Source: Burkholderia aenigmatica
Lineage (GTDB): Bacteria > Pseudomonadota > Gammaproteobacteria > Burkholderiales > Burkholderiaceae
Direction: 5' to 3'
NCBI RefSeq assembly: GCF_902499175.1
Contig: NZ_CABVQC010000021.1
Coordinates: forward strand, 1-64,000
Length of the DNA stretch: 64,000 nucleotides
Positions within the stretch are counted from its first letter, which is position 1. Each line of letters opens with the position of its first letter. The position numbers were made by a program, and so were the translations under genes. Shown here piece after piece: positions 140 through 29,331 of this stretch. A model generated the notes under the pieces. The model saw only the letters and a list, made by a program, of their open reading frames with translations, did not search any database and was not told where the DNA came from.

Positions 140-1396
140 TTAGCAGGCGAAAAGATCCGCGGCCCGCCGGAAATCACCGATGCCTTGCCGTGTCAGTACT
201 GCATCCGGAAAGCGGTTTGCTCCCCCCAACACGTAGTCAAGCATCAATTCGCTTCCGATCCAGTTCCGGCCAAGCCGCTCAGCCTCTGCTCCAGTCTTGA
301 ACGAACCCGAGAACGGGTCGTAGACCGTGTCGCCTTCCATCGTGCACAGCTTGATGAAGTGTTCCGGGACAGCGCCCGGAAACCGCGCCGGATGGACCGG
401 CAGATCCTGCTCACGGCAAGCCTTCATGTAATGACTGTTCGACTCGGTATTCGCCGCGACGATCAGATTTGGTGGTATTGCCCCTCCGTTGTCGACGTCG
501 AAAGCGCCGGCCGACAGCTCGTGGCCACTGGGTCGTACAGCCGCCTTCTCACCACCCGCGGCAATGCGCGATCGCATGGACTCGCTGTACGGCACGAGTA
601 CCTGAGAATTGTCGGCATACGGATCGCCGTTCGGTGCGAGCCAGTAGATCTGCTCGAGCGACGGCTTGACGCGGACGCGGCGCACGGTAACCCACTCCGC
701 CGGCGCTGGCATCTTCGACGGGTTGTGCCAGGCGTATCGGGAACACAGCTTCCATCCCAGATCGTCCTCGAGCCGGATGATCAACCGTTCCTGATACGTC
801 GACAACATCGGCTCGCCGCTCTGGAATACGTCTCCAAGATTGAGCACCACCGAGCCGTCGCCCGCCAGCTTCTGCGGCCACAGTTCGGCAATCCGCATCA
901 ACCAGTCGAGATACTCTTCGACAGGCTTATTGCCGTACTGCTTTTCGCGGAGAAGCGGATACGGAGGCGACGTCAGGATCAGTCTGAGAGATCCGTCGTC
1001 GATGTGCGCGACGGCCTCCTTCGCTTCGCCGAACAGCGCCACACCTTTGCTCGTCGTGAAGATGGTGATGACGATGCCAGGTGCGGCCTGACGAAGTGCG
1101 TCTCGCCCTTTGCCCGTCAGATCCCATTCGCCGCGACCGGACGAGTTGATCAGCCCCATCAAACGGGCGCGCTGCTGCGCCCACCTGACAGATCGCTGGT
1201 ACACGTTGACATTTCGTCCTGCGAGTAGCGTCGTTTCTTGCTGTTCGACATCCGGCACGCCGCACTTGAGTGCGATCGCGTCGTAAAGGTCGTGGGTATG
1301 CGCCTTGCCGCCTTCGTTTTCGATGCAATCGAGTAACGGCAGAACAATCTGGTCTTGCGAGACCTTGCGGCGAGACCGCGGTCGAGGTTGATTCAT
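140..1396 (-). CDS. site-specific DNA methyltransferase (TSPPY type)
   Basis: A 418-aa protein. The catalytic motif IV reads TSPPY at about residues 141-145, which fits N4-cytosine or beta-class N6-adenine amino-methyltransferases. The SAM-binding motif near the C-terminus is DPFSGSFKTG, followed by NWIGSEL. About 90 N-terminal residues look like a winged helix of the kind found at the N-terminus of Mrr-type proteins. No restriction endonuclease gene is adjacent, so it looks like an orphan modification enzyme. ATG has SD GGAG 7-8 bases upstream, and that SD can be masked by the leader hairpin at 1399-1422. Target base and recognition site cannot be read from sequence. Confidence 0.93.
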   Translation of the reverse strand: MNQPRPRSRRKVSQDQIVLPLLDCIENEGGKAHTHDLYDAIALKCGVPDVEQQETTLLAGRNVNVYQRSVRWAQQRARLMGLINSSGRGEWDLTGKGRDALRQAAPGIVITIFTTSKGVALFGEAKEAVAHIDDGSLRLILTSPPYPLLREKQYGNKPVEEYLDWLMRIAELWPQKLAGDGSVVLNLGDVFQSGEPMLSTYQERLIIRLEDDLGWKLCSRYAWHNPSKMPAPAEWVTVRRVRVKPSLEQIYWLAPNGDPYADNSQVLVPYSESMRSRIAAGGEKAAVRPSGHELSAGAFDVDNGGAIPPNLIVAANTESNSHYMKACREQDLPVHPARFPGAVPEHFIKLCTMEGDTVYDPFSGSFKTGAEAERLGRNWIGSELMLDYVLGGANRFPDAVLTRQGIGDFRRAADLFAC

Positions 1397-1531
1397 GCTC
1401 TGCTCCGGGAACGCGAAGCAGACAACCCTGCAGGGCTGTGTGCCCCGCTAGGGTTCAAGATTCGGCACCAGCTAGGGATGCCAGAATTACAGCCGCAAAA
1501 GGGCCGAGGCTGGATACGGACCAGCTACCGT
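1397..1531 (-). ncRNA. structured 5' leader, copy A
   Basis: The minus-strand transcript leader of the methyltransferase. In transcript order: P1 GCTGG/CCAGC (1521-1525 with 1509-1513); a variable hairpin with GGCA/TGCC arms; P3 with outer CCC/GGG and inner CGGG/CCTG pairs (1426-1453); and P4 in which TCTGCTTC pairs with GGAGCAGA (1399-1406 with 1415-1422), covering the SD. The same four-part layout recurs at 4072-4204 and 4606-4743 with sequence changes that keep the pairing. It looks like a cis-acting translational switch. The ligand or trigger is unknown. Confidence 0.7.
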
Positions 1532-1545
1532 GGGAAATCAGGTTG

Positions 1546-1573
1546 ATTGTACACGATAACTTCTTGATGGGAA
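1546..1573 (-). promoter_or_regulatory. promoter A with TTCC-N5-GGAA-like motif
   Basis: Minus-strand -10 TACAAT at 1546-1551, preceded by TG (extended -10). The pseudo-palindrome TTCCCATCAAGAAG at 1560-1573 occupies the -35 region. Transcription would start near 1538, at the 5' end of leader A. The same arrangement stands upstream of leaders B and C. Confidence 0.65.
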
Positions 1574-1616
1574 TCCGCCAAGCGGAGCACCGACAGCGCT
1601 GAATCGGGCGGTTAAG

Positions 1617-1964
1617 TTACTTGGCCGACGGAATTTCCGGCGCCCGCTCGAGATCCCGGACGTCCATGAATTCCTTGAGACGCTGACGTCTTTGCCGCGG
1701 GCGCAGGTCGAAGTCCACATAGACGTGATCTTCGAAGGGGCGGCTGCACAGGGTATTGACTGTCCCAGTCCACCCGGCACGTCCGGCCTGCTCCGACTGA
1801 GGGAAGTATCTGGTTTTCACGTCTTCGGAGACACGCACCCGATCGCCGGGAGCAAACTGATGGACTTTGGCTTCGCTGTTCGTAGCAGGTAAATCTCGGC
1901 CGACGTCACTTGCACTATGCGCACTACCACCCAAAACGGCGCTCGCATCTTTTTCGCTCATCAT
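1617..1964 (-). CDS. hypothetical protein with possible SH3/KOW-like segment
   Basis: A 115-aa protein of unknown function. Residues about 38-100 (FAPGDRVRVSEDV, then a glycine-containing turn and VYVDFD) have the spacing of a small SH3-like or KOW beta-barrel; this is inference from pattern only. Two consecutive ATGs (1964, 1961) follow a purine-rich GGGGAAA. A CCTGACGGGAA motif lies just upstream in the intergenic region. No neighbour clarifies its role. Confidence 0.7.
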   Translation of the reverse strand: MMSEKDASAVLGGSAHSASDVGRDLPATNSEAKVHQFAPGDRVRVSEDVKTRYFPQSEQAGRAGWTGTVNTLCSRPFEDHVYVDFDLRPRQRRQRLKEFMDVRDLERAPEIPSAK

Positions 1965-2129
1965 TTTCCCCAGGAATGCTTGTTCCCGTCAGGCTAACAA
2001 GGCGTTTCACGAAAGCAAGTCCCATGGTATGCAGTGGTGGCGAATCGCCCCTATTCGAATCTGCCATGCGCTTCCTGTCTTGTTCCCCGAGAAAATTTAT
2101 CTTGGGAGGGCGCTTCACGGAGCGGGAGG

Positions 2130-2681
2130 CTACTTGCTACGAAGTGGTCCCATCTTCTCCCGGAGACGGGAAACTGCGCGCATCGCATCAGTTTCCTGCA
2201 GCGCAATGAAGCGACCGAACACACCGTTGACCACCTGCACGCCGTCGTAGACCTTCATACTGTCGCGGTACACGAACGCGTCGTCCTCGCGGACGTGCCC
2301 GTTGCGCAGAAGATGATCCACCACGGCGAGAATGTCGTTCGTGACGCTACAGCCGCCCTCGTCCCGATCGATTACGACCGCGACCTGGTCGACACGCTCG
2401 ATATCAATGTTGGATCGCAGCGGAATGGGCTTCCCGGTGCGTTGAACGAATTTCCCTTTGCTGGCCATGGCGATGACTGTTGCCGCTGTAGCCGAGATGC
2501 TCGAAATCGCTCCGGGCGAGAACACGGTCATTCGGCCGTAGACGTCATGAACTTCCAGTTTCATGCCGGAATCGATATCGACGACACCGGCACAGCCATG
2601 CTTGCGAAGCAGATCCTCCAGCTCGTCCAGGCCGAACACCACGTCGAACATCCCTTGCCGCCGGCGTCTTATCTCGATCAC
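2130..2681 (-). CDS. hypothetical protein
   Basis: A 183-aa protein with even, acidic/hydrophobic composition, no membrane segment and no motif I recognise. The start is taken as GTG at 2681 because GGAGG lies 4 bases upstream. The frame stays open to another GTG at 2708, which has no ribosome-binding site. Likely monocistronic. Confidence 0.72.
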   Translation of the reverse strand: MIEIRRRRQGMFDVVFGLDELEDLLRKHGCAGVVDIDSGMKLEVHDVYGRMTVFSPGAISSISATAATVIAMASKGKFVQRTGKPIPLRSNIDIERVDQVAVVIDRDEGGCSVTNDILAVVDHLLRNGHVREDDAFVYRDSMKVYDGVQVVNGVFGRFIALQETDAMRAVSRLREKMGPLRSK

Positions 2682-2886
2682 CTTTCCTCCCTGCCATTCG
2701 AATCCCACGATTGAGCCATTATCCAGACCGCGCCCTCGTTTTCAATGGGCGGCAGCGAGGAATTCACACCCTGTTAACGGAGAGCCCCCCTGCACAGCTT
2801 TAGAGCTGCCAGAGTCATCAGGTACGTCCCCCTAAGGATCTGCCGACGCGAATCTCCGAAATTCAGCACCGGCGTACCCGACAAAT

Positions 2887-2929
2887 GGAAAAGGCCCGTG
2901 GCGCCCCCAAAACGGGGGCGCCACGGGCC
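2887..2929 (-). terminator. strong intrinsic terminator
   Basis: Sixteen-base perfect arms at 2893-2908 and 2914-2929 with a 5-base loop, followed on the minus strand by TTTTCC. It ends the operon running 4071 to 3031. The 2709-2886 interval beyond it holds no supportable gene. Confidence 0.9.
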
Positions 2930-3030
2930 GTATGATCGACACTTCAATCGACGTGTCGAGACAGGCGGCTGGAGATGCCCGAGGGAATCTCCTGCCCCAC
3001 GCTGGTCGTAAACTGAAAGACCGCGGGCGC

Positions 3031-3174
3031 CTAGCTGTTGAGCCAGTCGTCGTAGCTCTTGACCTTCCAGCCCAGCGCAATTGCGTTGGCAACGTAGATC
3101 TGATACTCGTCGTCGTTGGCACCTCGGACTGGTGTTTGCCAGTCCGCTGCAGGCGTGAGCTTCGGATCAGCCAT
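3031..3174 (-). CDS. small hypothetical protein (47 aa)
   Basis: A small gene starting MADPKLTPAADWQTP and ending DDWLNS. Its ATG overlaps the end of the upstream gene (stop at 3167), with GGAGG of that gene's 3' end serving as SD, so the two are translationally coupled. It is acidic and soluble, with a tryptophan-rich C-terminus. The strong terminator at 2887-2929 follows. Function unknown. Confidence 0.75.
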   Translation of the reverse strand: MADPKLTPAADWQTPVRGANDDEYQIYVANAIALGWKVKSYDDWLNS

Positions 3175-3844
3175 ACGTCACCTCCAACTGCTCGAGGGTG
3201 GCTTTGACCACCGCCGTGAAATCGCGGGGACCGCCGTTCACGGGGATGGCCTTCAGAACGGCGTCAAGCTCCTCGCCGTCGTCGCCCTCGATCATTTCGA
3301 TGATTGCCGTGGCCACTTCACCTCGCATCCACCCTGCCGCGTAGCGGGGCGCCGTGAAGTACACGACCCTCGGACACACCGCGAAGCAAAAACTGCCCAC
3401 GCGACGTGTCGTGAGCGGATTCGCATCCGCGAAGATCATCGCGTCAAGCTTAGCCTTGCGACGCTTGTCTTCGTCTCCGGTTGGGTACGGAAACTGAATC
3501 ATCGCGCAGGCCTGCACGAGCACGTATCGTGAGAGAGCGTCGAGCGTCCCCTCGTAAAGCCATGGATCGTGCTGGCACAGACTCCAGCCGCGATGCTTAG
3601 AAATCGCCAGCAGTTCCATCCCCCTCCGCTCGTGCGGGTTGAGATCGAAAATCTGCGGATATTCCTGCTCGCGGATCTTGGAAGGATCCGGGGTCCACTC
3701 GAGCGCGACGTTCACGATTGCATCTTTCGTGACCTCGCGCAGCTTGTAATCCCCGATCTCATTCCTGGCCGCATAGCTGATTGCAGCCGATGCGGACAGA
3801 AAGTGCTTGATCGCACTGCCGTTTCGATACTGGATACCGTCCAT
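3167..3844 (-). CDS. hypothetical protein (225 aa)
   Basis: A 225-aa soluble protein without recognised domains; five cysteines are scattered and do not form zinc pairs. ATG at 3844 is preceded by AAGGAGCAG. It sits between the 52-aa zinc-ribbon-like gene (3913-4071) and the 47-aa gene it overlaps, so all three are probably one operon driven from the promoter at 4219-4247. Its own SD lies in a potential hairpin (see 3845-3912). Confidence 0.8.
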   Translation of the reverse strand: MDGIQYRNGSAIKHFLSASAAISYAARNEIGDYKLREVTKDAIVNVALEWTPDPSKIREQEYPQIFDLNPHERRGMELLAISKHRGWSLCQHDPWLYEGTLDALSRYVLVQACAMIQFPYPTGDEDKRRKAKLDAMIFADANPLTTRRVGSFCFAVCPRVVYFTAPRYAAGWMRGEVATAIIEMIEGDDGEELDAVLKAIPVNGGPRDFTAVVKATLEQLEVTYG

Positions 3845-3912
3845 GGTGACTGCTCCTTGAATTCAGCGGAATTAGCCCTCGCGGGCGTGCTCCGCAGGGA
3901 TCATGTGAACAG
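3845..3912 (-). promoter_or_regulatory. partial leader-like element inside operon
   Basis: The 68-base intercistronic gap carries CCC-TG-CGG / CCG-CGA-GGG, the same layout as P3 of the leader RNAs. GTGACTG at the end of the upstream gene can pair with CAGTCAC, which overlaps GGAGCAG just before the ATG at 3844. This is a reduced copy of the SD-masking arrangement seen in copies A-C. Confidence 0.45.
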
Positions 3913-4071
3913 TCACTTGGACGACTTACGGATCTGCCTGCCGGCCGGTCCGAAATGAGCGTCGAAATGGTCGCCGGTCAGGCATTCGATGTTGTGACGG
4001 CAATCCCCGTTGAATACCCCACGGTGGGAATGGCCGCAGCGATCGCATTGCACAACGTACAGGAAAGGCAT
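3913..4071 (-). CDS. small zinc-ribbon-like protein (52 aa)
   Basis: A 52-aa protein starting MPFLYVVQCDRCGHSHRG. CxxCGH near residues 9-13 with further Cys and His at about 24-30 suggest a small zinc-binding fold. ATG at 4071 is preceded by AAGGAGCAG, which is masked by P4 of leader B. It is the first gene of the 4071-3031 operon. Family unknown; reading frame, SD and leader context all support it. Confidence 0.78.
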   Translation of the reverse strand: MPFLYVVQCDRCGHSHRGVFNGDCRHNIECLTGDHFDAHFGPAGRQIRKSSK

Positions 4072-4204
4072 GGTCTGCTCCTTGAGGGCAGCGAAGCAGA
4101 CGCCCCTCCGGGACGAAAGCCCCGCGAGGGTAAAACACCAGAGTGGTGTGAAAGGATGACGGCGTTACAGCTGCCGTACTGGCTGGTTTTGGGTCCAGCT
4201 ACCG
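4072..4204 (-). ncRNA. structured 5' leader, copy B
   Basis: P1 GCTGG/CCAGC (4195-4199 with 4182-4186). A variable hairpin with ACACC/GGTGT arms followed by TTTT could act as an attenuator. P3 has CCC..CGGG / CCCG..GGG pairs. P4 is GTCTGCTTC pairing nine bases with GGAGCAGAC (4073-4081 with 4093-4101), the best SD-masking stem of the three. It precedes the 52-aa gene. Confidence 0.72.
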
Positions 4205-4218
4205 TTGAAAACGCCTTA

Positions 4219-4247
4219 AATATAGGCGAAAAACTTCCTGTCAGGAA
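4219..4247 (-). promoter_or_regulatory. promoter B with TTCCTGACAGGAAG motif
   Basis: Minus-strand -10 TATATT at 4219-4224. The palindromic TTCCTGACAGGAA at 4234-4247 sits where a -35 box would be, 9 bases upstream of the -10. This is the most symmetrical copy of the motif in the window. Confidence 0.7.
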
Positions 4248-4323
4248 ATAAATTGCAGTGCCGGTCCGCGATCACCTTGCGACGTGGACGTCCGATATCA
4301 CACGCCCGCTGGTGAATCGGAAA

Positions 4324-4605
4324 TTATGAGATCCGGCGAGCACCCGCCAATCCGTAGAATCCACCGCCACCGACGATGTCAGCGACCATGTGGGCCAGGA
4401 CGCCCAAATGAGGACCGCTGGGGTAGTCGCAATACCATTCGCCCAGCAGACAAAAGGAAACGGGCTCGCGAGGGCGCTGAAAATCGGCCATCAGATAATC
4501 GCCAGGCGGGGGACCGGAAAACACGCCGCCGGTGACCTCGATCCTGTCGAATTTGTAGGGGAACGCCCCCTTGACGTAGTCGGTTGCAGTTTTTGCGTCG
4601 TACAT
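4324..4605 (-). CDS. hypothetical protein (93 aa)
   Basis: Starts MYDAKTATDYVKGAFPYKF at 4605 after AGGAGCAG. The frame is open further upstream but runs through the conserved leader, so the longer start is rejected. It has a proline/glycine-rich middle and a glycine-rich C-terminal VGGGGFYGL. Monocistronic behind promoter C and leader C. No known domain. Confidence 0.75.
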   Translation of the reverse strand: MYDAKTATDYVKGAFPYKFDRIEVTGGVFSGPPPGDYLMADFQRPREPVSFCLLGEWYCDYPSGPHLGVLAHMVADIVGGGGFYGLAGARRIS

Positions 4606-4743
4606 GAGTAGCTGCTCCTGGGAATTACGAAGCAGACGCCCAGCGGGACAGAATGCCCCGTATGGGTTGAGGTGAGTGACGGCGTGATGGCGTCGGAAGT
4701 TCATGGCCAGAGGCCGATTGGCTGGTTGCGGCCCAGCTGCCGA
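4606..4743 (-). ncRNA. structured 5' leader, copy C
   Basis: P1 GCTGG/CCAGC (4733-4737 with 4721-4725). The variable hairpin has GACG/CGTC arms. P3 has CCC-ATA-CGGG / CCCG-CT-GGG. P4 is CTGCTTC pairing with GGAGCAG (4612-4618 with 4629-4635). Stem sequences differ from copies A and B while pairing is kept, which argues for selection on RNA structure. Confidence 0.7.
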
Positions 4744-4761
4744 TAGGTCGAATCACGACCG

Positions 4762-4788
4762 ATTATACAGATCCTTCCTGGTGGGAAG
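4762..4788 (-). promoter_or_regulatory. promoter C with CTTCCCACCAGGAAG motif
   Basis: Minus-strand -10 TATAAT at 4762-4767 (extended by TG), with the TTCC-N5-GGAA motif at 4774-4788 six bases upstream. Another CGTCAGGAAG half-like copy lies at about 4803-4812. Confidence 0.7.
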
Positions 4789-4965
4789 CATCTCTTGCGT
4801 TCTCGTCAGGAAGTATCGGACACTAAGAACAGGCACAACCCTTCTAGGACGTCAGGTTGCCTTGGAATAGGACTACATGCGATGACCCTAAATAATCGGC
4901 ATCTGCTGCCGTAATTTACGGGCACATCCCGCGCGATCGCGCTCGCCGGCTGCATCGGAGAATGA

Positions 4966-6996: not shown

Positions 6997-8376
6997 CTAT
7001 TCCAGCCCCTTGACCTTGTCGATCGCCTCCTCAATCCGGTCGACCGCGACCACAGTAAGCCCATCAATAGGTTGTTTCGGGGCGTTCGCCTTGGGGATTA
7101 GCGCCACCGAGAAACCGAGTTTCGCAGCCTCCTTCAAGCGTTCCTGTCCGCGCGGTGACGGACGAATTTCGCCCGCCAGGCCGACCTCTCCAAAGGCGAT
7201 CAGCCCCTTCGGCATCGCCTTGTTTCGCATGGACGAGTGGATCGAGAGCAGCACGGCAAGATCCGCGGCCGGCTCGGTGATCTTCACTCCACCAACGGCA
7301 TTGAGAAACACGTCCTGATCGAAGCATGCGACGCCCGCGTGCCGGTGTAGCACCGCCAGCAGCATCGCGAGCCGGTTCTGCTCGAGGCCGACAGCGAGGC
7401 GCCGCGGATTCGGGGAGTGAGTGCCATCGACCAGCGCCTGAATTTCCACGAGAAGCGGTCTCGTTCCCTCCTGCGTGACCATCACGCAGGAACCCGGAAC
7501 CGTCTGATCGTGACGAGACAGAAACAGCGCCGACGGGTTCGCCACGCCTCGCAGTCCCTTTTCCGTCATGGCGAACACGCCGAGCTCGTTCACTGCGCCG
7601 AAGCGGTTCTTGAACGCCCGGACGAGCCGGAAAGACGAATGGGTATCGCCTTCGAAATACAGCACCGTATCAACAATGTGCTCGAGCACGCGCGGCCCCG
7701 CCAGGTTGCCCTCTTTCGTCACGTGACCAACCATGATGATCGCGGTACCGGACTGTTTGGCGATCCGCGTGAGCTGCGCCGCACACTCACGAACCTGGGC
7801 CACTGACCCCGGTGCGGAGGTCAGCGCCTCCGAATAGATCGTCTGGATCGAATCGATCACTGCCACGTCGGGCTTTTCAGCCTCGATCGTCGCCTGGATA
7901 CGCTCCAGTTGAATTTCGGCGAGTAGCTGAAGGTCACTGGCCTTCGAATCGTCCTCGAGCAGCGACAAGCGCTGAGCGCGGAGGGCGATTTGCGCTGCCG
8001 ATTCTTCACCGCTCACGTAGAGCGTCTTGCGCTCGCCAGCGATCGCGCCGAGGGACTGCAGCAGAAGAGTCGATTTCCCAATGCCCGGATCGCCGCCAAT
8101 CAGCACCACGCCGCCAGCCACCAGGCCGCCACCGAGGACGCGGTCAAATTCGCCGACGCCAGTCGAGAATCGCGGCACGTCAGTCGCTTCGATGTCCGCC
8201 AGCTTTTGGACCGGGGCGCTCTTTGCGAGGGACTGGAAGCGGTGCGATCCAGATCCGGTGTCGGCAGCAGTTTCGACAAGCGTGTTCCACGTGCTACACC
8301 CGGGACACTGGCCTTGCCACTTGGGGGCGGTTGCCCCGCACTCGGTACAGCTATAGACGGTCTTTGCTTTGGCCAC
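6997..8376 (-). CDS. radA: DNA repair protein RadA
   Basis: A 459-aa protein, full length for RadA/Sms, an ATP-dependent branch-migration helicase acting in recombination and DNA repair. It has a zinc finger with Cys10, Cys13, Cys24 and Cys27, Walker A GDPGIGKST at 95-103, the RadA-specific KNRFG at 256-260, and a C-terminal Lon-type domain. The start is GTG with AGGA 7 bases upstream. The chromosome of such a host normally has its own radA, so this is probably an extra copy serving the mobile element. Confidence 0.96.
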   Translation of the reverse strand: MAKAKTVYSCTECGATAPKWQGQCPGCSTWNTLVETAADTGSGSHRFQSLAKSAPVQKLADIEATDVPRFSTGVGEFDRVLGGGLVAGGVVLIGGDPGIGKSTLLLQSLGAIAGERKTLYVSGEESAAQIALRAQRLSLLEDDSKASDLQLLAEIQLERIQATIEAEKPDVAVIDSIQTIYSEALTSAPGSVAQVRECAAQLTRIAKQSGTAIIMVGHVTKEGNLAGPRVLEHIVDTVLYFEGDTHSSFRLVRAFKNRFGAVNELGVFAMTEKGLRGVANPSALFLSRHDQTVPGSCVMVTQEGTRPLLVEIQALVDGTHSPNPRRLAVGLEQNRLAMLLAVLHRHAGVACFDQDVFLNAVGGVKITEPAADLAVLLSIHSSMRNKAMPKGLIAFGEVGLAGEIRPSPRGQERLKEAAKLGFSVALIPKANAPKQPIDGLTVVAVDRIEEAIDKVKGLE

Positions 8377-28992: not shown

Positions 28993-29331
28993 TCAGGCCC
29001 ATCGGAAACGCCGTACTGCATGGATCGCCACCCCCTCTTCTCGTTCGACTTGGTCCGCCGGAAGCCAGTGCTCTCCACGTTCCAGTTGGGAAATGATGTC
29101 CCATTGTTGGATCTCAAATGCGATGCTCGGATCGGTTCGGGCACCGTTGACGACCGGGTAGAGGTACCAGAACTCCGGGAACTGGTTCTCGCGCTCGAGT
29201 CGGAACCGTAGCTCGCCGTCGATCAGAATGTCGTAGTTCCCCGTCGCGTCGTGCTCGTAGCACACGCGATCAGCGTACTTGCCGGAACTCGCACGACTGC
29301 GGATGACGGGTTTTCGGGTAGATACAGGCAT
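28993..29331 (-). CDS. hypothetical protein (112 aa)
   Basis: A soluble, aromatic-rich protein with AAGG 5 bases before ATG. No domain recognised. Preceded by a structured leader of about 170 bases and a copy of the TTCC-N5-GGAA motif. Confidence 0.72.
   Translation of the reverse strand: MPVSTRKPVIRSRASSGKYADRVCYEHDATGNYDILIDGELRFRLERENQFPEFWYLYPVVNGARTDPSIAFEIQQWDIISQLERGEHWLPADQVEREEGVAIHAVRRFRWA

Follow-up and report, generated by a model that had tools for sequence, protein, structure and literature searches.

In erm-type attenuators, mutually exclusive hairpins set access to the Shine-Dalgarno (SD) sequence, with segments 2 and 3 pairing after a ribosome stalls on a leader peptide, and in the hok mRNA and the MS2 leader a helix that forms transiently during RNA synthesis gives way to a closed final structure. 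Rfam files the DUF3085 RNA (RF02959) as a cis-regulatory RNA, and we take it from the family name to lie upstream of the DUF3085 gene. Here we describe a repeated leader found in the first 64,000 nucleotides (nt) of contig NZ_CABVQC010000021.1 (hereafter C21) of Burkholderia aenigmatica (assembly GCF_902499175.1, 8.9 Mb in 158 contigs), a stretch that we refer to as the window. A preliminary description had placed three such leaders in front of unrelated genes, and all three are there, on the minus strand and each running directly into an ATG. They are composed of a constant hairpin P1, a variable P2 region, a nested hairpin P3, and a hairpin P4 that contains the SD. The leaders belong to a large and apparently undescribed group of RNA gates carried by bacterial plasmids and elements related to them, and we consider it fairly probable that each is a cis-acting translational gate of three competing strands, which would be open on new transcripts and then close.

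The leaders resemble the known systems in part. As in erm, mutually exclusive hairpins decide SD access, but here segments 1 and 3 pair, and a leader-peptide attenuator of the erm type was rejected because an SD-preceded upstream open reading frame of at least five codons occurs in none of 20 hand-chosen leaders. The proposed transient helix followed by a closed fold recalls hok and MS2, which are single genes, whereas the leaders precede dozens of unrelated genes. The view that no described family has this layout holds at the Rfam gathering level, as no family reaches its gathering score in the window, with a faint overlap with the DUF3085 RNA, which matches the second leader (4121-4204, minus strand) at 23.0 bits (gathering score, 40.6). 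The CGGuAGCUGG, CCAGCC, and CAACCC..CGGG blocks of that family can be seen by eye in this copy in the same order, but the 76-position RF02959 model ends inside P3 and has no P4. RF02959 gave no match at E ≤ 10 at other copies on four loci (L078, L079, L080, and L084) and none in 150 family-level and 399 order-level genomes, where the control genomes gave none either, so that true members were never compared. With a sub-threshold match only, the DUF3085 RNA was not accepted as the family.

The window genes behind the leaders are not DUF3085 genes but a methyltransferase (by Pfam) and two short unknown proteins. Elsewhere, a DUF3085 gene is preceded by a match to R1, a covariance model that we built from nine leader copies of the B. 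aenigmatica genome, at a Burkholderiaceae locus (L132, 44.3 bits) and on the Cupriavidus plasmid p352-3 (L141, 18.6 bits). The radC RNA (RF01754) was also rejected as the family; it has no match in the window at the gathering score and is present at other DUF3085 loci. At Burkholderiales loci of this kind (L127-L131 and L134) the radC RNA is followed, by eye, by an AACCC..GCGGGG hairpin and an SD hairpin before the ATG, and R1 gives weak matches behind it (E 0.004 to 0.052). P3 and P4 may be a shared output module that is placed behind different 5′ parts.

The competing helix that couples P3 to P4 is new relative to the preliminary description, which also overlooked the dispensability of P1 and P2 and the presence of the unit in front of dozens of genes. 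In the consensus, strand a (GCGGGGCA, the 5′ strand of P3 and its loop) pairs with strand b (TGCTTCGC, the 5′ strand of P4) through a helix that includes two G-U pairs, and this a:b helix excludes P4 and thereby frees the SD-carrying strand c. Because b cannot pair with a and c together, the leader has two exclusive states. Variants of b are matched by a (GGTGGGGAAGC with GCTTCCTTGCC at L078:6208, and CGGGAGAAC with GTTCTCC at L086:10072), and the a:b duplex energy is −15.23 kcal/mol with a copy's own b against −12.09 kcal/mol with the b of other copies. None of 2,000 permutations reached the own-copy match, whether among 83 rows, a set that includes near-duplicate Ralstonia copies, or among the 55 and 20 rows that remained after clustering at 80% and 70% had removed these duplicates. 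Taken by itself, the P3 loop likewise matches its own b (0/2,000 permutations), and the same test found no own-copy fit for loop:c, P4-loop:b, or a:P4-loop. Strands a and b are co-adapted copy by copy.

This co-adaptation extends to plasmids outside the R1 set. We collected 116 gene starts there (115 annotated and one, at L141 32448, from a model match), which represent co-directional genes of chosen stretches rather than all genes, and 55 of them have adjacent P3 and P4 hairpins in the minimum-energy fold. The own a:b energy at these starts is −11.81 versus −6.95 for other pairs, a difference reached by none of 5,000 permutations either jointly or on each of the three plasmids (n = 24, 19, and 11). 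A strong a:b helix (−10 or lower) is present at 36 of the 116 starts, compared with a mean of 1.05 and a maximum of 3 in 20 shuffle rounds. The controls were all zero: 0/45 starts of MG1655 (45 of the 48 coding sequence starts in the first 50 kb) and 0/56 of pOLGA2 (plus-strand starts of the first 50 kb), with a P3+P4 parse obtained in only 5 and 15 of these control starts, respectively, as well as 0/39 starts of pHT1-1, another DUF3085 plasmid, and 0/8 tra starts. Because all of these controls lack it, the a:b design is a trait of certain plasmid lineages and is not general among DUF3085 plasmids. The plasmids from Vibrio, Citrobacter, and Cupriavidus are typed MOBH; pHT1-1 is MOBH too, yet it is without the design.

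Building and searching a covariance model had been proposed as a check, and covariation proved weak on nine copies and strong on a larger alignment. Among the nine own-genome copies, 1 of 21 pairs changed on both sides, with 4 double-change cells against 1.5 in shuffles, a count reached by 13 of 500 shuffles. Among 65 matches in alignment A3, which is fitted to the structure and here includes false rows, 14 of 21 pairs changed on both sides, with 88 cells against 18.1 (0/500 shuffles). Paired cells hold 146 G-U and 26 A-C combinations, although the model behind this alignment is itself tolerant of G-U; in 56 of 67 copies, folding is better for the sense than for the antisense strand. For the later tests we removed fragments, rows without a start codon, and off-family rows (12 of 65 in A3 and 11 of 42 in A4), leaving 84 rows; removal of identical cores left 83 for the permutation test, and 67 were used for folding. 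In the MAFFT alignment A5, meant for a core-only model, the 3′ strand of P3 did not align. The earlier suggestion of a cis-acting RNA able to hide the SD is thus supported by covariation, G-U bias, sense-strand folding, and promoterless copies, while the metabolite, small RNA, or element-encoded protein suggested as its regulator is conjectural.

Helix covariation, a:b co-adaptation, better sense-strand folding, and promoterless copies between genes are computed results, as are the competing helices; from these we infer a kinetic reading with its trigger and timing. In the nascent prefix (the leader up to b, without c), a:b exceeds a:a′, where a′ is the partner of a in P3, in 55 of 67 copies, whereas in the full leader a:b prevails in 7 of 67 and P3 is favored in 60. 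Own strands give 7.48 expected pairs in the prefix versus 4.01 for chimeras (p = 3.6e-8). On the outside plasmids, a:b is favored in 31 of 55 prefixes and in 1 of 55 full-length leaders (own 5.30 versus 1.15). The same asymmetry appears in two of the three window copies and is absent in copy 2. Because a:b is favored in the nascent prefix and P3 in the full leader, we prefer a kinetic gate to a ligand switch. We hypothesize that strand a pairs with either a′ or b, and strand b with either a or c, such that during transcription of the leader a:b would form first and c would emerge unpaired. A ribosome could load on the nascent message while c is free; unless held by a ribosome or some factor, c would then capture b, P3 would close on a, and the message would be shut. 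P1 and the promoter with its palindrome would only mark transcript starts. Synthesis would be expected in brief pulses that accompany fresh transcription, and old transcripts would contribute little background.

Several observations weigh against this gate. The prefix does not favor a:b in 24 of the 55 outside cases or in copy 2 of the window (0.34 versus 3.91), and the prefix model takes no account of how fast transcription proceeds or where it pauses. Giving a copy its own P3 instead of another's does not significantly reduce the computed cost of SD opening (6.70 versus 7.71; lower in 32 of 67 copies; p = 0.1), so an a:b ON state at equilibrium is not supported by the folding model. The parsing rule for the outside plasmids was written after some of their leaders had been viewed, and copies on related elements are not independent. 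The wider claim, that whole plasmid gene blocks, IncA-type ones included, carry a cistron-by-cistron kinetic gate that permits translation only during transcription until refolding closes the message, is one we put forward tentatively and would at present rather doubt than accept. Such a gate would yield a burst of plasmid proteins at the onset of transcription, for example upon entry into a new cell, and near silence later.

The same three strands could instead act as a switch at equilibrium, in which a plasmid protein or small RNA bound to the AACCC...GGG of P3, or a small metabolite, frees a for b. Consistent with this, AACCC and GGG are conserved in sequence beyond what pairing requires, a pyrimidine-rich stretch precedes P3, and the many copies per replicon would form one regulon. 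The P3+P4 core has no separate aptamer, however, P1 and P2 are missing from many copies, and no ligand pocket was identified, nor was a search for a regulator gene made; we regard a trans-acting signal as rather unlikely. A simpler proposal is that P3 and P4 dampen translation or protect the RNA and that the a:b match is a by-product of purine-rich, SD-like a and c strands. Strand a does resemble c, b resembles an anti-SD, and the SD opening-cost test was negative, but a composition effect should survive permutation among copies, and own pairs beat other pairs in the R1 set, on the outside plasmids, and in the A3 rows. The loop, which lies outside the P3 helix, is also co-adapted with b, and we give the by-product explanation little credence.

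The hairpins might also act in the incoming DNA strand and not in RNA, as single-stranded DNA promoters of the Frpo/ssi type in a leading region. The leaders share with Frpo/ssi the placement of repeated structured elements before plasmid establishment genes; methyltransferase genes and a single orientation per contig are typical of leading regions (PMC11541004); the Ralstonia-like replicon with many leaders carries a MOBH-type relaxase domain (G144:C4:204549-205454) and may well be conjugative; and a gene similar to one behind a window leader, encoding 93 amino acids (aa), lies in the pOLGA2 array behind another repeat. Against this, numerous copies stand between genes and have no promoter module (0/41 rows lacking P1), G-U outnumbers A-C, the sense strand folds better, and in the kept rows P4 contains the SD and ends at the start codon. 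In Frpo/ssi the promoter elements sit within the folded DNA stem; in the leaders the −10-like hexamer and the palindrome precede P1 and so stand outside P1-P4, P1-less copies have neither, and pairing is that of the sense strand. The promoterless copies and the strand bias disfavor this reading, to which we assign very little credence indeed. The kinetic gate of three competing strands remains our preferred reading.

The repeated unit is P3+P4, which is given to each gene, while P1 marks the head of a transcript; we conclude this because the promoter occurs only with P1 and P1-less copies follow a preceding stop codon. In a count that takes in 106 of 107 rows, false rows included, the palindrome TTCCTGnCAGGAA is found within 3 mismatches upstream of 38 of 65 P1-type rows (at 40 to 45 nt in 32 of the 65) and a −10-like hexamer with at most 1 mismatch in 24 of 65; neither occurs in any of the 41 P1-less rows. 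The palindrome and hexamer stand at nearly constant spacing (window 4235-4247 and many P1 copies), and the palindrome is likely a shared operator of a regulator. P1 and P2 are missing from many copies. The P1-less copies sit after the stop codon of the preceding gene, 12 to 40 nt away in 16 of 21 chosen copies, and the last 20 nt before P3 are pyrimidine-rich (66% C+T, in those 21 of the 22 chosen intercistronic copies that have a stop codon upstream). The AACCC...GGG of P3 is kept in sequence as well as in pairing.

R1 matched 27 places in the B. aenigmatica genome at E ≤ 1 and 22 at E ≤ 0.01, the latter distributed over C21 (six), C118 (seven), and C105, C120, and C87 (three each), with one leader orientation per contig on all five. 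In searches with strict filters that scored few candidates per genome, 29 of 299 genomes in the family-level sample and 3 of 369 in the class-level sample (B. aenigmatica itself counted in) matched at E ≤ 0.001; in the family-level sample, many had just one weak match, confined to P3+P4. Dozens of further copies were found in Ralstonia and Paraburkholderia and on Cupriavidus, Vibrio, and Citrobacter plasmids. Among the carriers are Ralstonia pickettii SSH4, Paraburkholderia humisilvae LMG 29542, and a Rhizobiaceae metagenome-assembled genome; two further genomes (G144 and G121) are taken as Ralstonia because their R1 scores equal those of SSH4. Three of five DUF3085 plasmid loci have R1 matches (Vibrio alginolyticus, L144; Citrobacter IncA, L145; and Cupriavidus p352-3, L141), with 15 rows at E ≤ 1; in 10 of these the match stops precisely at an annotated start codon. 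There was no match at the DUF3085 loci of V. penaeicida and Agrobacterium (L142 and L143). The Vibrio and IncA plasmids have a bet-exo-DUF3150-VWA-DUF3085 block in common, for which reason we call the former IncC-like, a label of ours and not its typing. A phage collection queried with one leader gave no match, and viral contigs gave none to the core pattern. Genes behind the leaders include two DNA methyltransferases, an HATPase, two PAPS-reductase-like proteins, and DUF3150 (Pfam); 5 of 10 Pfam-tested genes had no family, and there are more such genes among the remainder. We found no description of the element in the open literature searched, which is not proof that none exists.

Within the window, P1 (GCTGG/CCAGC) is identical in all three leaders, as had been claimed. 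P2 consists of one or two hairpins whose sequence varies while pairing is retained, also as first described: the P1-P3 spacer folds better than mononucleotide shuffles in 20 of the 20 hand-chosen P1-bearing leaders (z < −1, mean −2.5). The two nested GC helices proposed for P3 are present but not perfect everywhere, with an A.C mismatch in copy 3 and a register shift of the outer helix in copy 2. The proposed P4 pairing of GTCTGCTTC with GGAGCAGAC, with the SD inside, is exact in copy 2 and reduced in the others, where copy 1 lacks the outermost pair and copy 3 has 7 pairs.

All three copies contributed to R1. Copy 1 (1394-1530, from CGGTAGC to the ATG; 99.2 bits by cmsearch) has P1 at 1509-1525, P2 at 1457-1507 (folding z −1.74 versus shuffles), P3 at 1424-1455 with strand a GCGGGGCA at 1441-1448, and P4 at 1399-1423, where strand b TGCTTCGC occupies 1413-1420 and strand c, with the SD, GGAGCAGA at 1399-1406; the a:b duplex is −15.0 kcal/mol. 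Its promoter module (1546-1573) has a palindrome-like TTCCCATCAAGAA at 1561-1573 with 3 mismatches and a −10-like TACAAT at 1546-1551 with 1. Behind it lies a gene (140-1396, minus strand) for an N6/N4 DNA methyltransferase with an Mrr N-terminal domain (PF01555, 1.1e-35; PF14338, 1.1e-13). Copy 2 (4069-4204; 110.5 bits) has P1 at 4182-4199, P3 at 4103-4131 with strand a GCGGGGC at 4119-4125, overlapping the sub-threshold RF02959 match, and P4 at 4073-4101, formed by GTCTGCTTC at 4093-4101 and GGAGCAGAC at 4073-4081 (a:b −11.6 kcal/mol). Its promoter module (4219-4247) has the palindrome TTCCTGACAGGAA at 4235-4247 without mismatch and a −10-like TATATT at 4219-4224. The gene behind it (3913-4071, minus strand) encodes a 52-aa protein that is similar by eye to a 52-aa protein behind copy C118:1850 (L078 1982-2140), and because each has a leader of its own, the gene was seemingly copied along with its leader.

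Copy 3 (4603-4742; 98.1 bits) has P1 at 4721-4737, P3 at 4639-4667 with its A.C mismatch at the base of the inner helix and the strand a region CGGGGCA at 4654-4660, and P4 at 4612-4635, pairing CTGCTTC (4629-4635) with GGAGCAG (4612-4618) (a:b −8.8 kcal/mol). Its promoter module (4762-4787) has a palindrome-like TTCCCACCAGGAA at 4775-4787 with 2 mismatches and a −10 TATAAT at 4762-4767, and a second palindrome match of equal quality lies 25 nt further out. The gene behind it (4324-4605, minus strand) encodes the 93-aa protein, and similar DNA is found on pOLGA2 (L022, NZ_CP014581.1) within a gene behind a different repeat. At positions 9600-43260, pOLGA2 carries long repeats, 8 copies of a 300-nt unit and 11 copies of a 108-nt unit, just before genes of a single co-directional array that stands ahead of the MobF relaxase gene. 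The repeats contain a hairpin with GTCAAGG..CCTTGAC and look like single-stranded DNA promoters, unlike the present leaders.

Among plasmids, pBN2 of Paraburkholderia aromaticivorans gives the best match to window positions 3900-4800 (95.9% over 901 bases). Close to the leaders, at 6997-8376, is a radA/sms DNA-repair gene, and C21 may therefore represent chromosome at this point and contain an integrated element or a contig join. TraI_2 (MOBH relaxase) domains were found with nearly equal scores on the Ralstonia-like replicon and in B. aenigmatica (G000:C76:36605-37510), and the two may belong to one kind of element; neither C21 nor G144:C4 has a TrwC or Relaxase-family domain. Contig C105, which has three leaders, carries 12 tRNA matches (L080, 3638-5002), an array that suggests a large plasmid or phage-like element. 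On p352-3, an sbcD RNA (RF01757, 158.4 bits; L141 28914-29068) lies just upstream of a hypothetical gene at 29152.

If the proposed gate is correct, several large-plasmid lineages in Proteobacteria would use an RNA device, repeated gene after gene, to control a gene block that comprises methyltransferases, PAPS-reductase-like proteins, recombination proteins, and many unknowns. The device would provide a new approach to the question of how plasmids keep down their cost and become established. The three-strand rule predicts the effects of point changes in dozens of natural leaders, and the gate may help explain the orphan Rfam families DUF3085 RNA and radC RNA.

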